From NCBI RefSeq assembly GCF_023805295.1, contig NZ_JAMSHT010000001.1:558001-622000 (forward strand): a stretch of DNA of 64,000 nt, written 5' to 3'. The translations under genes were made by a program, and so were the position numbers. Shown piece by piece: positions 1-7,401 of the stretch; positions within the stretch are counted from its first letter, which is position 1, and each line of letters starts with the position of its first letter. This DNA is from Sphingomicrobium sediminis. GTDB lineage: Bacteria > Pseudomonadota > Alphaproteobacteria > Sphingomonadales > Sphingomonadaceae. The notes under the pieces were generated by a model. That model saw only the letters and a list, made by a program, of their open reading frames with translations, was not told the origin of the DNA and did no database searches.

Positions 1-629
1 GGCGCCTCGTCCGATAGAGCGACGTCCATGGCGTGGATCGCATCTGCCTCTTTGAGCTCGACATGCATGCCTGCGATCGCTCCCAGCGTTTCGCGGCTCG
101 CAATGCCTTCTGCCGCGTCGATCATCGGCGGCCATTCGCGATCAACATAATAGATGTCGTGCCAGCGCTTTCGCAGGATGCGGGCAGTAGCCGGTTCGAT
201 GATGCCAGCGCGCACCGCCGCGACGAGGGTGGCGCGCACATCGACCATCGGCACACTCACCGCTTTCCAGCCGATCCGCGCATCGCCGTGGACGAGCGCG
301 ACTTCGTCGTCGCCGACAAGCAAGCCGGAGCGATAGGCGTCGAAGATCGAGCCGATGCCCGTCATACCGAATTCATGCAGTTCGGCGGCGCGCAACGCGC
401 CCATGCTCGATGCGCCATAGAGCCGGGTGCCGGCGGCCATCAGCGACAGCGCCTCCTTGTGCATGACGGCGGCGCGTTCCTCGAAATAGCCGTCCAGCAG
501 CAGGACTTTGGCGGGCGCCTCGTCGACCAAGGCGAGAAAATCACCCGCTTCGGCCGGTGCTCGCCAGTCGATGCCGCGCCAGCGGTCGCGAAGGTCGAGT
601 GGCAAGGACGGGCCGGCGAAAACAATCAT
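1..629 (-). CDS. TfuA-like protein, partial (C-terminus beyond the left edge)
   Basis: Translating the minus strand from the ATG at 629-627 gives an open frame to the window edge with no stop (209 residues seen). The N-terminus IVFAGPSLPLDLR and the block YGASSMGALRAAEL at residues 71-84, followed by GMTGIGSIFDAYRSG, are the signature of the TfuA-like core domain. The start overlaps the ycaO stop as ATGA. TfuA proteins are encoded beside YcaO enzymes; in methanogens and thioamidated RiPP pathways the pair installs a backbone thioamide, with TfuA thought to help deliver sulfur. The partner YcaO and this gene should therefore act together on one substrate. The family call is firm; the reaction is inferred. 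Confidence 0.9.
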   Translation of the reverse strand, partial: MIVFAGPSLPLDLRDRWRGIDWRAPAEAGDFLALVDEAPAKVLLLDGYFEERAAVMHKEALSLMAAGTRLYGASSMGALRAAELHEFGMTGIGSIFDAYRSGLLVGDDEVALVHGDARIGWKAVSVPMVDVRATLVAAVRAGIIEPATARILRKRWHDIYYVDREWPPMIDAAEGIASRETLGAIAGMHVELKEADAIHAMDVALSDEA

Positions 630-1756
630 GCGCGCCGCTCCTTTCCGAGCGAGCCAAGCCCCGGGCAGAAGGCGCGGACGATGTGGAAGGGGCCCGTCTG
701 CGCGATGTCGAGAAACGCAGTCTCATCGAAGCCTCGGGCCGCAAGTTTTTCGACGAGCCTTTCGACGTCGCGATCACCCGGTTCGATGCTGTCAAAGGGC
801 AGGGGGTCGATCATGGGGGCTGGCGGCGGAGCCAGGGTCGCCATGATCCCGCGACGTTCTTCCGTGTAGAGCCACGGCCAGCAATCGTCGCGCGCACCGG
901 CGATGAAAGTGAGGCGGCTTTGTAGCGCCTCGGATATGGCTTGGAATAGAGCGAGTTCCGGGTCCGGATGCGCCGCATATCCGACCGAGCCCGCATAGGG
1001 TCGGGCTCCCTTGGTCGCATCGCTGACGCCCGCACCGATGACCGGAGTTGCGGTCAGGGATGGCAAAACGAAGAGGCGAAGCGCTGCGCCAGCCTCCCGG
1101 ACGCGGCCGTGCAATGCGGCGAACCAGCCGAACGGGATCGTTCTTTCGTCCAGCTCGCATTCCAGCCGCTCGAACATGTCAGCGGCATGAAAGGCAGATA
1201 CCGCGTCGCGTTCGATCAGTTCGTGGAGCGCCGTGCGCTGCGCCTCTTCACGTGTGGAGCCAGTGGCCAGCCCGGCGCTGGCGCGCTCGAAGGGGCTGTC
1301 GGCAAAGCGGGTGAAATCGAGCGAGGCGCTAGCCAGCGGCACATGCAGCCTGCTGCCGTCCACGCGGGTCGCGGCGATCCATTGGTGTGTTGTGTCCGCT
1401 GGCGGCGTTCGGTCGCGATGCCGCGCGAGGTCTGCGATATGGTCGGGGCGTTCGTCTGCCGGAAGGTCGTTCCAACTCGCTTCCGGACCCTCGGCCTCGA
1501 ACCGCTCTGCGGCGTCGCTCTCGACGGCTTCCAAAAGCGCGCCGAGTTTGGCCGTGTCTTGGTCTGCGCCCTTGCCCTGATGCACCGACAGCGCGCGCGA
1601 CATCGGCCGGACGGCCTGCCAGACGGGCAGCCCGATCCTGTCGAGCCTCGTAATGTCGGCGAGCCGCGTGACGCCTGCCGCCTTGGCCGCCGTCCACGCA
1701 GCATCGAACAGCGCCGCGGCCGGAGCCGCGCGCTGCCCGTCACTTGGAAAATTCAT
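626..1756 (-). CDS. YcaO-domain protein, TfuA-associated type
   Basis: 376 residues. YcaO enzymes use ATP to phosphorylate a peptide amide oxygen, leading to azoline, amidine or thioamide formation. Visible YcaO landmarks are SAGLATGSTREEA (residues 160-172), the nucleotide and metal-binding helix HELIERD with E179 and E182, and EALQSRLTFIAGARDD (276-291), which resembles TfuA-partnered YcaO proteins. No E1-like or ocin-ThiF partner is visible, and the C-terminus (FCPGLGSLGKERRA) lacks the Pro-rich tail of azoline-forming cyclodehydratases. The gene lies 15 bp after a small gene at 1772-2017 and overlaps the tfuA-like gene by 4 bp, so the three look like one operon. Thioamidation is the likeliest chemistry by association; the substrate is unknown. 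Confidence 0.9.
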   Translation of the reverse strand: MNFPSDGQRAAPAAALFDAAWTAAKAAGVTRLADITRLDRIGLPVWQAVRPMSRALSVHQGKGADQDTAKLGALLEAVESDAAERFEAEGPEASWNDLPADERPDHIADLARHRDRTPPADTTHQWIAATRVDGSRLHVPLASASLDFTRFADSPFERASAGLATGSTREEAQRTALHELIERDAVSAFHAADMFERLECELDERTIPFGWFAALHGRVREAGAALRLFVLPSLTATPVIGAGVSDATKGARPYAGSVGYAAHPDPELALFQAISEALQSRLTFIAGARDDCWPWLYTEERRGIMATLAPPPAPMIDPLPFDSIEPGDRDVERLVEKLAARGFDETAFLDIAQTGPFHIVRAFCPGLGSLGKERRA

Positions 1757-1771
1757 TGCCGCCTTGAGGGC

Positions 1772-2017
1772 TTAGGGAACCTGGTCCGTATTGATGCCCT
1801 TGAACTCGACTTCGGAGAAATCGACGGCGTGATAGTAGGTGTGCGGCTTGTCATGCTCTTCCTGATAGGCCTTGCGCATGTCTTCGACACCCTTGACCTT
1901 CTTCATGTCGTCGGCGGCAATAGCCTCGTCCATATTGTAGATGAGCATCTTGCCGGTGGTGAGATAATAGGTCTCGCCAACCTTAATGACGAACCGGCTC
2001 TTCTTGTCCTTGGCCAT
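1772..2017 (-). CDS. Small conserved-looking protein heading the YcaO/TfuA operon; candidate substrate
   Basis: 81 residues starting MAKDKKSRF, with no cysteine, no signal peptide and no membrane segment. It is rich in Lys, Asp, Glu and Tyr, with two similar spots, GETYYLTT and KPHTYYHA. The start has a strong Shine-Dalgarno GGGGGAAA four to five bases upstream and a plausible promoter just ahead. I do not recognise the family. Its place as first gene directly before ycaO and tfuA makes it a candidate precursor or protein substrate of those enzymes. Against this, it is larger and better folded-looking than a typical RiPP precursor and lacks an obvious leader/core boundary. It could instead be a metabolic accessory protein. 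Confidence 0.8.
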   Translation of the reverse strand: MAKDKKSRFVIKVGETYYLTTGKMLIYNMDEAIAADDMKKVKGVEDMRKAYQEEHDKPHTYYHAVDFSEVEFKGINTDQVP

Positions 2018-2049
2018 GGTTTCCCCCTTAATGGTTACCCGGAACGTTC

Positions 2050-2078
2050 ATTCTATCAACATCCATGATAATAACCAA
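2050..2078 (-). promoter_or_regulatory. Candidate promoter of the small protein-ycaO-tfuA operon
   Basis: On the minus strand a -35-like TTGGTT (2078-2073) is followed after exactly 17 bp by a -10-like TAGAAT (2055-2050). Transcription would begin near 2043, giving a 5' leader of about 26 nt before the ATG at 2017. The -10 matches 5 of 6 bases and the -35 only 3 of 6, so this is suggestive rather than certain. Confidence 0.45.
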
Positions 2079-2244
2079 CGATAAACGACTGTTTAGCGGG
2101 GCTTTGTGCCCAACATTCGGTTTTCATTCCCGTTTATCGAAGCGGGAGCGTCATTGGTCGGTGAATGGGAACAAGCGACTGGAAGGGTGAGACAAGACAC
2201 CTTAGCTGTGCTATTCGGACAATACACTTTGATGGGGGAAGTTT

Positions 2245-3885
2245 ATGAGCTTCATTTCAGTACTTGCCGCGAGCCTGCTGGCGACGCAGCCCGCACCCAA
2301 TACGGCCGCCGCAGCACAGGCATATCTCGACCGTGCTTATCCCGCGGACGGGCCCGGCGTCAGCGCGATCATCGTCGATGACGGCGAGATCGTGTTCAAG
2401 GGCGCTGCGGGCATGGCCGACATGGAGGCTGGCACGCCGCTCACTGGCGACAGCAAGCATTGGATCGGGTCGATCACCAAGCAATTCTCGGCCGCGATGA
2501 TCGTCAAGCTCGTGGAAGAGGGGGCGCTGTCCTACACCGACCCGCTGTCAAAGTTCCTGCCCGACTATCCGGGCGGCGATTTGATCACGGTCCACCAGCT
2601 GCTCAATCACACGTCGGGTGTGCAGAGCTATACGTCGATCCCGGGCTGGATGATGAACCCCAAAAATACCTCGCAGGATCTGACAACTGCTGAGTTGATT
2701 GCCGAATTTTCGGGGCTCGACCCGGTTTCGCGGCCCGGCGAGACCTGGAGCTACAATAATAGCGGCTATGTGCTGGTCGGTGCGGTGATCGAAGCAGTCA
2801 CCGGTCAGCCCTGGCACGAAGCCATTCGCACCCGCCTGCTAGAGCCCGCGGGGATCAACGACATTCTCTACAGCGAAGATGGCGCCGACCTGCTCGCCAA
2901 CGGCTATACCCGCGGCGGCGATGGGGTCGAGCCGGCACGCGATTTCTCCCCGACCATTCCGCACGCGGCAGGCGCGCTGATCGGCGATGTCGAGGCGTTG
3001 GCGAAGTGGTATGACGCCTTGTTCGATGGTCGCATCGTCAGCGAGGCCGGGCTCGCCCGAATGACCACCTGGACACGCACCTATGACGGGGAGACCGAAA
3101 ATTACGGCTATGCGCTGGCCGAAGACGACCTGCTGGGTCGCGACGGCATCGGCCATGGCGGCGGCATTTTCGGCTTCAACACGGCCAGCACCTATTATCC
3201 CGGCGAAGACCTGTTCATCGCCGTCTTCGCCAATAGCGACGCAGCCGTCACGCGGCCGTCCATCGCATCGGCGCGGCTCGCCGCACTCGCGCTGGGCGAA
3301 CCATTCGCCATGTATGACGAAGTGGAATTCGATGCTGCCGAGCTTGAGGGCTGGACGGGTGTCTATGCGTGGGACGAGGAAGACGAGGTCATCCTCAAGA
3401 TTGAAGATGACAAGCCTGTCCTCGTGACCGCGTCCGGACGCCCGCTGCAATTCAAGGCGGCTGGCGATGGTATCTATTTCCGCGATCCCTCGGCGAGTGT
3501 CGCATGGTTCCGGCTGTCGAGCGATCGCGCAGCGCGCAAGACGCTCGAATGGCATGATGGCGAAGGTGCGAAGATCCTGCTGCGCACCGGCGATGTGCCC
3601 GAGGGCCCCGAAGCCTATGTGCTGAGCGATGCCGAGCGCGAAGCCTGGGTTGGCCGCTATCGCTTCCCTATCGGCATCTTCACCGTTGCCCAAAACGCCG
3701 ATGGCGAGATGACCGGTCAACTCGAAGGGCAGGGGCCGGTGCCGTTCGTGCCGACGTCCGCAACCGAGGCGACCGCCGACGCGGTTGGGGCGCGGCTTGT
3801 CTTCGATGTCGAGGATGGCAAAGCCAAGACCGTGAAGATCTTGCAGGGCGGAGCCGAACTGATGGGCGAGCGGATAGAGGAATAG
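2245..3885 (+). CDS. Serine hydrolase of the class C beta-lactamase / PBP-like family
   Basis: 546 residues. A short hydrophobic N-terminus (FISVLAASLLA) looks like an export signal. The beta-lactamase-type domain has SITK (S76, K79) as the nucleophile motif, YNN (Y170 to N172) as the second motif, and GHGGGIFG in place of the KTG box. The last 200 residues form a separate beta-rich region. The start at 2245 is supported by GGGGGAAG seven bases upstream. Such proteins are D-aminopeptidases, esterases or carboxypeptidases; true beta-lactam hydrolysis is not implied. It is monocistronic, divergent from the YcaO operon. Confidence 0.85.
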   Translation: MSFISVLAASLLATQPAPNTAAAAQAYLDRAYPADGPGVSAIIVDDGEIVFKGAAGMADMEAGTPLTGDSKHWIGSITKQFSAAMIVKLVEEGALSYTDPLSKFLPDYPGGDLITVHQLLNHTSGVQSYTSIPGWMMNPKNTSQDLTTAELIAEFSGLDPVSRPGETWSYNNSGYVLVGAVIEAVTGQPWHEAIRTRLLEPAGINDILYSEDGADLLANGYTRGGDGVEPARDFSPTIPHAAGALIGDVEALAKWYDALFDGRIVSEAGLARMTTWTRTYDGETENYGYALAEDDLLGRDGIGHGGGIFGFNTASTYYPGEDLFIAVFANSDAAVTRPSIASARLAALALGEPFAMYDEVEFDAAELEGWTGVYAWDEEDEVILKIEDDKPVLVTASGRPLQFKAAGDGIYFRDPSASVAWFRLSSDRAARKTLEWHDGEGAKILLRTGDVPEGPEAYVLSDAEREAWVGRYRFPIGIFTVAQNADGEMTGQLEGQGPVPFVPTSATEATADAVGARLVFDVEDGKAKTVKILQGGAELMGERIEE

Positions 3886-5472: not shown

Positions 5473-6719
5473 TCCTTTCTGCCCATGAGCGAATGATCGC
5501 TCGGCGCTACCTCCTTCCCCACAAGGGCGAGGGCTTCATCTTCGTCGTCGCCGGTTTCTCGGTTGGCGCGGTGGCGCTCGGCGTGGCGGCGCTAATTGTC
5601 GTCATGAGCGTCATGAACGGTTTCCGCGCCGACCTGTTCGACCGCATCGTGGGCCTCAACGGCCATGCGGTGGTGCAGGGCTATAACGGCCAGCTCGAAG
5701 ACTGGGAGAATGTCGTCGACCTCGCCATCGCAACCGAAGGTGTGACCGAGGCGACGCCGATGATCGAGCAGCCGCTCATGGCCTCTTCCAACGGACGGGT
5801 CGAAGGTATCTTGCTGCGCGGCCTTCGGGTCGAGGACATTACCGGCAATCCGCTCATCAGCGAGAATATTACCGCAGGTCGGCTCAGTGACGTGCGCGTC
5901 GGGTCGGGCAATATCGCGCTGGGCGCGCGGCTCGCCGAGAGTCTCGGCGCGCGGGTCGGCAGCGAGGTGTCGCTGATCAGCCCCGAAGGGCGCTCTACAC
6001 CCGTCGGCACCTTGCCGCGCATCGTCTCCTACCGTGTGTCCGCCATTTTCGAAGTCGGCGTCTACGATTATGACAAGGCGTTCGTGGTCATGCCGGTCGA
6101 GGATGCGCAGACCCTGCTCATGCTGGGCGACATGGTGACGACGGTCGAACTGGAAGTCACCGATCCCGATCGCGTCGGCCGCCTGTTGGCCCCGCTCGCG
6201 CCGCAAGTCAGCCGCAGCGGGGTGATCGTCGACTGGCGACAGATGAATTCGGCGCTGTTCGAAGCGCTCGAGGTGGAGCGCGTGGCGATGTTCATCGTCT
6301 TGTGCATCATCATCCTGGTCGCCGCCTTCAACATCGCCAGTTCGCTGATCATGCTGGTTCGGGCGAAACGACGCGACATTGCGATCCTGCGCACCATGGG
6401 CGCGAGCCGGGCGGGGATGACACGCATCTTCATGGCAGTGGGTCTGACGATCGGGCTGGTCGGCATCCTGATCGGGCTTGCATTGGGAGCGACCTTCCTT
6501 TTCTTCCGCCAGGGCGTAGTCGATCTCATCCAGGCAGCCTCGGGGCAGGATTTGTGGGACCCGTCGGTCCGCTTCCTGTCCGAATTGCCTTCCAAGACCG
6601 ACCCGTTCGAGGTGGCAGCCATCGTTCTCGTCACCTTAATCCTCGTGTTCATTGCGACCCTGTTTCCGGCGCGCAAAGCCGCAGCAACCGATCCGGTGGA
6701 GGTGCTGCGCTATGAGTGA
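5469..6719 (+). CDS. lolC: Lipoprotein-releasing ABC transporter permease, LolC/LolE family
   Basis: 416 residues, typical for LolC/E. Inner-membrane subunit of the Lol complex, which extracts outer-membrane lipoproteins and passes them to LolA. There is an N-terminal membrane helix (residues 20-45, [20 protein letters not shown]), a large periplasmic domain, and three C-terminal helices with the FtsX-like permease core ([16 protein letters not shown]). It ends [17 protein letters not shown], a family hallmark. The start at 5469 overlaps the proS stop; the gene overlaps lolD by 8 bp. Only one permease gene is present, so it may act as a LolF-like homodimer. Confidence 0.95.
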
Positions 6720-7401
6720 GCCGGTTCTTGAAACCAAGGACCTGCGCCGAAGCTTCACGCAGGGCCATGTCACCATCGAGGTGTTGCGCGGTGTCGATCT
6801 CACGATCCAGCCGGGCGAGATTGTCGGCCTGTTGGGACCGTCGGGCGCGGGTAAGTCGACCTTGTTGCAGGCGGTTGGCCTGCTCGAGGGCGGCTTCCAG
6901 GGCTCGATCCGCATCAACGGCCAGGAAGCCTCGCACATGAATGCGGGCCAGCGTACCGAGCTGCGCCGCGATGCATTGGGCTTCGTCTATCAGTTCCACC
7001 ATCTCCTGCCCGACTTCGATGCGTTAGAAAATGTCGTCCTGCCGCAGCTCATCCATGGCGCGGATCGCGAAGATGCCGACGATCGTGCCCGCGAATTGCT
7101 GTCGCGGTTAGGCCTTGCCGAGCGTCTGGACCATCGTCCGTCCAAATTGTCGGGCGGCGAGCAGCAGCGCGTCGCCGTAGCACGCGCGCTCGCCAATCGT
7201 CCGCCGCTCATTCTTGCCGACGAGCCCACGGGCAATCTCGACGAGGCGACCAGCGAGCGCGTCTTCGGTGCCTTCATGGAGTTGGTGCGTGCCGAGGGGT
7301 CGGCCGCACTGGTGGCAACGCATAACGAGGCGCTGGCGGCGCGCATGGACCGCGTGATCCGCCTTCACGATGGCAAGTTGGGACCGGGCCTCAAACTTTA
7401 G
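6712..7401 (+). CDS. lolD: Lipoprotein-releasing ABC transporter ATPase LolD
   Basis: 229 residues. ATPase powering lipoprotein release with the upstream permease. It has Walker [10 protein letters not shown], the Q-loop region [12 protein letters not shown], signature [15 protein letters not shown], Walker [13 protein letters not shown] and switch His in [17 protein letters not shown] with ENV following is typical of LolD rather than other MacB-like ATPases. The ATG at 6712 lies inside the end of the permease gene, implying translational coupling. Confidence 0.96.

Follow-up and report, generated by a model that had tools for sequence, protein, structure and literature searches.

Across the genus genomes searched, an 81-amino-acid protein, YcaO, TfuA and a tetratricopeptide repeat (TPR) regulator form an all-or-none set, as observed in gene order, co-occurrence, the regulator itself and a palindrome at its promoter. 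On balance, we think it probable that they constitute a self-contained module in which the YcaO-TfuA pair has the small protein as its dedicated substrate and thioamidates it, with the regulator acting through the palindrome. Considering that the small protein occurred only together with the enzyme pair and its own regulator in the searched genomes, it is probably the component that is modified. From sequence comparisons, we infer that it is the substrate rather than a mere partner, that thioamidation is the chemistry, and that the thioamide would be located in the small protein.

Gene organization of the YcaO-TfuA locus

The window, i.e., the whole stretch of 64,000 nucleotides that was analysed, covers positions 558001-622000 of contig C1 in a genome of 2.33 Mb (G000). 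ORF calling placed three tightly packed genes on the minus strand, in the order small 81-aa gene (1772..2017), ycaO (626..1756) and tfuA (3..629). The small ORF starts with ATG and encodes a Cys-free protein, likely a precursor-like substrate of YcaO-TfuA. It is separated from ycaO by 15 bp, and the end of ycaO has 4 bp (626-629) in common with the start of tfuA. A ribosome-binding site, AAGGGGG (2023..2029, minus strand), was read from the sequence 5 bases ahead of the ATG. The original prediction had described this arrangement, including the lack of Cys and the strong ribosome site, and all of it was found again. The promoter proposed there for the small gene held as far as a consensus match goes: a scan of positions 1700-2500 returned two sigma-70-like sites, one of them inside the gene, where shuffles lead to an expectation of 0.3, and the pair upstream of the gene (2068..2095, minus strand) agrees with the consensus at 9 of 12 positions, which is not evidence of function.

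Of the 231 aa of the complete TfuA (9934-10629 of L002, the stretch from the window's own genome), 209 are encoded in the window, and the final 67 bases of the gene lie left of it. There, L002 also contains a gene for a 524-aa winged-helix/TPR regulator on the plus strand (L002 8370-9944; genome 556370-557944), which is convergent with tfuA and overlaps it by 11 bp. A GNAT gene, assigned by Pfam, is divergent from the regulator gene (L002 7543-8316, minus strand). When the neighbouring genes were judged by reading, no peptidase or exporter was recognised beside the window's genes, either within the window or to its left. The original prediction, which saw neither kind of gene on this side and placed the missing end of the locus left of position 1, was incomplete in that a regulator and a GNAT, both module-bound in the genus, are found there.

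Two further neighbours were observed. A SulP-like transporter, its identity read from the sequence, lies left of the window and is absent from the other 39 loci compared. Inside the window, a serine hydrolase gene (Pfam Beta-lactamase; 2245-3885) is divergent from the small gene. Because relatives of this hydrolase occur near the module in just two other genus loci (L016 and L018), it is probably not part of the module.

The YcaO and TfuA enzymes

Both enzymes scored far above their Pfam cut-offs (YcaO, 376 aa, 151.6 vs. 25.7 bits; TfuA, 138.7 vs. 30 bits), and the YcaO is the sole YcaO match in the genome. Among solved structures, YcaO matched best to M. jannaschii MJ1094 (PDB 6pe3; 3.7e-17) and the complete TfuA to a TfuA (6xp8; 2.2e-25). 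Residues E179, E182 and E276 of YcaO, which we take to be ATP-site residues, are present at the numbers originally given and lie within stretches that align with MJ1094. Judged by their closest relatives, MJ1094 and a structurally characterised TfuA, the two enzymes appear to be of the thioamide-forming sort, with scores below cut-off for the McrA-type family. The closest curated families, TIGR03266 and NF033432, share with MJ1094 a link to McrA-glycine thioamidation in methanogens. However, the equivalog cut-offs were missed by a wide margin (135.5 vs. 365 bits and 159.7 vs. 235.2 bits, with TfuA scored without its last 22 residues), and McrA would not be expected in this bacterium. An azoline-forming YcaO is expected to come with a ThiF/E1-like partner, and none was recognised on reading the window's neighbours.

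An anti-phage library gave no match for the regulator, YcaO, TfuA or the small protein. A plasmid search with YcaO returned 279 records, every one below 60% identity, and a genome-contig scan with YcaO returned three loci.

Co-occurrence of the small protein with YcaO and TfuA

TfuA was detected in 9 of 61 genus genomes, and the same nine carry the small protein family; in each of the nine loci (L002, L014-L021), ycaO is immediately preceded by a homologue of the small ORF. A profile search found the small family in none of the 52 TfuA-negative genus genomes; since some of the nine loci had contributed to the genus profile, these 52 misses are the informative part of the comparison. Among 249 genomes of the sphingomonad family, TfuA occurred in 20 and the small family, searched with a wider profile (A2), in 10, all within those 20 and none among the 229 TfuA-negative genomes (both counts being taken as the same draw). 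The sets of 61 and 249 genomes were drawn evenly and do not comprise all species, and the genomes are related, so that the counts are not independent events. The original prediction had proposed to ask whether the small family accompanies YcaO-TfuA in other genomes or is widespread without them, and these counts speak for the former.

Beyond these sets, a search of ~5.8 billion proteins found five close to the small protein, the query included, and a genome-contig scan with the small protein returned 48 stretches and no relative. Of 147 genomes from the order, two matched the small protein, and both are TfuA-positive. Genus genomes with a YcaO and no TfuA (G154 and G162 over the cut-off, five more below it) contained no small homologue in any case.

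Outside the genus, 18 loci of the family were compared (L058-L075). A detectable homologue precedes ycaO in L059, L060, L061, L063, L064, L065 and L068, and the genome of L067 carries a small-family homologue on another contig. An ORF of 88-154 aa lies within 170 bp upstream of ycaO in L066 and L069-L074, with no detectable similarity to the small family, and no small ORF was recognisable before ycaO in L058 and L062. At class level, a small upstream ORF was taken as the partner, by eye, in five of 13 loci (L098, L099, L100, L102 and L105). Given the family- and class-level loci that lack detectable homologues, the small family is therefore particular to sphingomonads, and some YcaO-TfuA pairs lack an obvious small neighbour. 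Shared ancestry of the small ORFs of other lineages was considered and rejected: in hhalign comparisons of 12 sequences, with 30 shuffles each, none stood clear of its shuffles, the best being L073, for which 1 of 30 shuffles was as good. These ORFs are positional equivalents only.

Individual loci showed further peculiarities. L075 (4524-6350) is degraded, with a TfuA match over just 34 of 119 positions, a small-protein-like stretch that is read into the ycaO start and a weak small-family match (0.0069). In L071-L074, YcaO and TfuA are fused in one frame of 633-636 aa, with an ORF of 96-154 aa just upstream. L102, from another alphaproteobacterial family, has a 145-aa ORF before YcaO-TfuA (6651-7088) with three GKQRFA-type repeats; it looks like a multi-core precursor, which is an analogy to the small protein and not homology. 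Small exported proteins near the module in L059 (3530-3994), L072 (3504-4049), L073 (2290-2790) and L074 (2563-3102) resemble the UrcA family by eye; the two that were tested gave no Pfam match over the cut-off. In the class-level loci L094, L096, L099 and L100, the gene downstream of tfuA reads by eye as cyclic-nucleotide-binding (Crp-type), possibly another kind of sensor.

Sequence and predicted structure of the small protein

The small protein had been called unrecognised, in agreement with our searches: it gave no Pfam match at E values up to 1 and none in NCBIfam or PADLOC, and its family matched nothing among solved-structure profiles (best E 0.33) or PHROGs (best E 0.11). The ORF behaves as a gene, as homologues differ by 0.52 at third codon positions vs. 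0.39 and 0.37 at first and second positions. Its mean pairwise identity of 42.8% is lower than that of either enzyme (YcaO 51.9%, TfuA 56.2%). Conservation is highest at residues 11-30, lowest at 31-60 and intermediate in the tail, and besides M1 the residues I11, Y18, T20, Y27 and G43 are invariant across 13 aligned sequences. In the wider alignment (A2), the row of L060 was placed by eye; an HMM built without L060 still finds L060 at 4.2e-4.

The AF2 model of the window's protein is weak (mean pLDDT 56.9). It has strands at residues 9-13, 16-20 and 24-28, helices at 29-35 and 38-55, a short strand at 64-67 and low confidence over 60-81. A second family member gave a similar outline, weaker still (pLDDT 49.3). 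Residues 9-28 (FVIKVGETYYLTTGKMLIYN; 1934..1993, minus strand) thus coincide with the highest conservation and with low-confidence AF2 strands in a hairpin-like block, which is likely a recognition element. Residues 60-81 (1775..1840, minus strand), with pLDDT below 50, form a tail that is predicted to be disordered and varies between lineages in alignments A1 and A2; they are a candidate for the modified part. Within the genus, the tail carries (V/I)NTG close to its end in most proteins, INTD in the window's protein and VQTG and VNFA in two others, and the ends in other lineages are quite different (SMAQTN, SFQQTW, FEATDPP). The small protein looks like a recognition part with a free tail, a pattern that is no proof by itself.

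As pointed out in the original prediction, TYY occurs twice in the small protein, the first time in the best-conserved N-terminal block, where it looks more like part of a recognition element than a target. The proposal that these spots are repeated modification targets was rejected, because the second is not conserved: only 6 of 13 aligned sequences have TYY there, and the remainder show TWY or TAY or have lost the site.

A TPR regulator bound to the module

ORFs of at least 60 aa neighbouring 40 YcaO-TfuA loci (9 genus, 18 family, 13 class) were clustered, and the 14 largest clusters, several of them antisense frames, were viewed. One more widely recurrent neighbour emerged across the 40 loci, the TPR regulator gene. 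Of the 27 genus and family loci, 24 have this gene next to tfuA; 23 of these show a convergent arrangement with an overlap of 8-134 bp, and in L058 the distance to tfuA is 234 bp. A full-length orthologue was found in all nine TfuA-positive genus genomes (44-65% identity, E 4.3e-134 or better) vs. none of the 52 TfuA-negative ones. In genus genomes without the module, the best match (E 1.1e-27) covers the head alone; among the weaker matches, a few (E 6e-22 or worse) extend further along the protein. For the family set, with a limit of E 1e-60 and at most four candidates scored per genome, the regulator was present in 18 of 20 TfuA-positive vs. 0 of 229 TfuA-negative genomes. The two TfuA-positive genomes without it are G229, in which TfuA is degraded, and G237; G324 retains the regulator ~14 kb away from tfuA. 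Because the 13 class-level loci show only weak relatives (L095, L104 and L105, one with a cyclase head), the tight link between regulator and module is confined to the sphingomonad family.

Ten regulators and weak relatives, the latter including the class-level proteins of L095, L104 and L105, were scanned for domains, and TPR matches were found in all ten, some below the cut-off. The regulators of L002, L014, L020 and L060 have a Trans_reg_C head that scores over the cut-off, whereas that of L066 has just a Trans_reg_C match below threshold. In L002, Trans_reg_C and TPR are both over the cut-off, i.e., a TPR domain is joined to a DNA-binding domain, as in peptide-sensing TPR regulators (RRNPP-like in role). 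The L064 regulator has a BTAD match over the cut-off and a weak AfsR match, and BTAD is just under the cut-off in L073. The regulator type thus appears to be a winged-helix head in the genus and a SARP/BTAD-like head in other lineages, a kind of head that is common in pathway activators. The TPR region of the L066 regulator, one of three scanned, also matched TIGR04510, a 'putative peptide modification system cyclase' (E 1.2e-4). However, the score is far under the cut-off (20.8 of 400), and the head of the regulator here is DNA-binding and not a cyclase.

A candidate operator and divergent genes

The intergenic space between the regulator and GNAT genes contains a common GATTCTGACTCAGAATCTTTTCAGAAT-like sequence in the genus loci, and the palindrome site at the regulator promoter reads ATTCTGACTCAGAAT. 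With one mismatch allowed, the pattern ATTCTGANTCAGAAT lies between the two genes in eight of nine module genomes; the exception, G195, carries GATTCTGAAAAGAATC at the same place. Elsewhere, the pattern occurs once more, in G194. It is absent from all nine control genus genomes chosen for lacking the module, and also from the region before the small gene. Of the 18 genomes, G000 alone contained a reversed control pattern, with one site on each strand. We infer from these sequences that the regulator binds the palindrome.

The GNAT gene is divergent from the regulator in all nine genus loci, with E values of 2.4e-52 or better vs. 6.3e-31 for the best match elsewhere, and is module-bound in the genus. 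In seven of nine genus loci, an ORF for a hydrophobic peptide of 38-40 aa (e.g., MFNQAFIGLLAIVLTASTFGGTISIMGADAPAAQDVLVA) lies between regulator and GNAT and is read with GNAT; no such ORF was detected in L002 and L014. This peptide, divergent from the regulator and with a conserved GGT motif, was observed at L016 (2269-2388) and as equivalents in L015 and L017-L021. The 39-aa peptide belongs to a rare family of 14 proteins, and weak look-alikes (E 0.005-0.008) occupy the same place in L058 and L060.

Proposed function and alternative explanations

In the module as we picture it, the YcaO-TfuA pair probably binds the N-terminal hairpin block of the small protein (residues 9-28). TfuA would supply sulfide, and YcaO would convert at least one backbone amide into a thioamide at the expense of ATP, most likely in the flexible C-terminal third. 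The convergent TPR regulator would control its own promoter and the divergent GNAT through the nearly genome-unique palindrome and, in most genus relatives, the 39-aa hydrophobic peptide as well. There is precedent for the single steps: TfuA hydrolyses thiocarboxylated ThiS as sulfur donor (reported in part of PMC8939145), and a YcaO thioamidates a folded protein, uL16, which is counted, after MCR, as only the second protein to carry a thioamide installed by a YcaO, with more protein substrates suggested to be still undiscovered (excerpts of PMC13063428). The original prediction had left the small protein as either substrate or dedicated partner; its tie to YcaO-TfuA is supported by co-occurrence, and between the two roles the sequence features lead us to favour the substrate.

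A possible, though less likely, explanation is an ordinary small RiPP cluster, the product of which is cut and exported by unlinked proteins and acts outside the cell, with the regulator as a pathway-specific activator. YcaO-TfuA clusters are mostly interpreted in this way in the available part of PMC8120280, and the TfuA-related thioamidated RiPP clusters described there share with our locus the adjacent ycaO and tfuA and a small upstream ORF more variable than the enzymes. Our locus differs from them in the lack of a recognised exporter or peptidase, the Cys-free protein of an unnamed family and the convergent, module-bound TPR regulator. Genes for leader removal and export are usual in such clusters, though not obligatory. 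The SARP-like regulator heads, such as BTAD and the weak AfsR match in L064, would fit a pathway activator, and the GNAT might serve in tailoring or self-protection, for which there is precedent. However, no recurrent peptidase was seen by eye among the 14 largest neighbour clusters of the 40 loci. The sole transporter cluster, an ABC ATPase in seven loci, was read as the LolD neighbour of proS in four genus loci, and the tail of the window's protein has no GG or AxA site.

We consider an RRE-like role unlikely, in which the small protein would assist YcaO-TfuA in recognition or as a scaffold and the modified target would be another protein encoded elsewhere. E. coli YcaO does modify such a target, the full-size uL16, and resembles our system in being a Pseudomonadota YcaO that acts without a RiPP exporter (excerpts of PMC13063428). 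Also consistent with a partner are the N-terminal strands and helix, which could form a small domain in the low-confidence AF2 model, and the failure to recognise an exporter or peptidase. However, the small protein has no match to an RRE or other domain, and it is less conserved than the enzymes with a lineage-variable tail, unlike a partner of a fixed target. Moreover, the uL16-type YcaOs are reported without a nearby TfuA in the same excerpts, whereas the window's YcaO has both TfuA and an adjacent small gene, which the E. coli type lacks, and reaches 17.1 bits with the NF040716 model, the cut-off of which is 700. A ThiS-like role of the small protein, as a dedicated carrier of sulfur to TfuA, is very improbable: the hydrolysis of thiocarboxylated ThiS by TfuA (part of PMC8939145) and the similar size would fit, but the window's protein ends in NTDQVP without a C-terminal GG, its relatives end in NTGP, NTGDDD or FATE, with PGG in L016 alone, and there is no ThiS-family match.

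The locus had been put forward as possibly undescribed. YcaO-TfuA clusters in Proteobacteria have been described in general (PMC8120280, in part), and the claim is fair for the small protein and the regulator within the open-access full-text literature, where we found no paper joining YcaO and TfuA with Sphingomonas or with a tetratricopeptide regulator. The term 'Sphingo' is absent from the main text of PMC8120280, and the small family may be among the thousands of peptides predicted in its supplements.

Returning to the favoured reading, a module with a thioamidated substrate, its compactness, with a candidate substrate, the enzymes, a regulator and a candidate operator all in one set, would allow a direct test of the role of such a modification in a bacterial cell, and the association of regulator and enzymes can be used to find further systems. 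An intracellular role is possible because of the module-bound regulator, the nearly unique palindrome and the lack of recognised export genes. Tentatively, and with doubts greater than for any reading above except the sulfur carrier, the thioamidated small protein might be an intracellular ligand, and the TPR regulator might read its modification state, and thereby the supply of ATP and sulfide, and switch its own gene, the divergent GNAT and the 39-aa membrane-type peptide by way of the palindrome. If this were true, a backbone-modified protein would serve these bacteria as a one-component signal.
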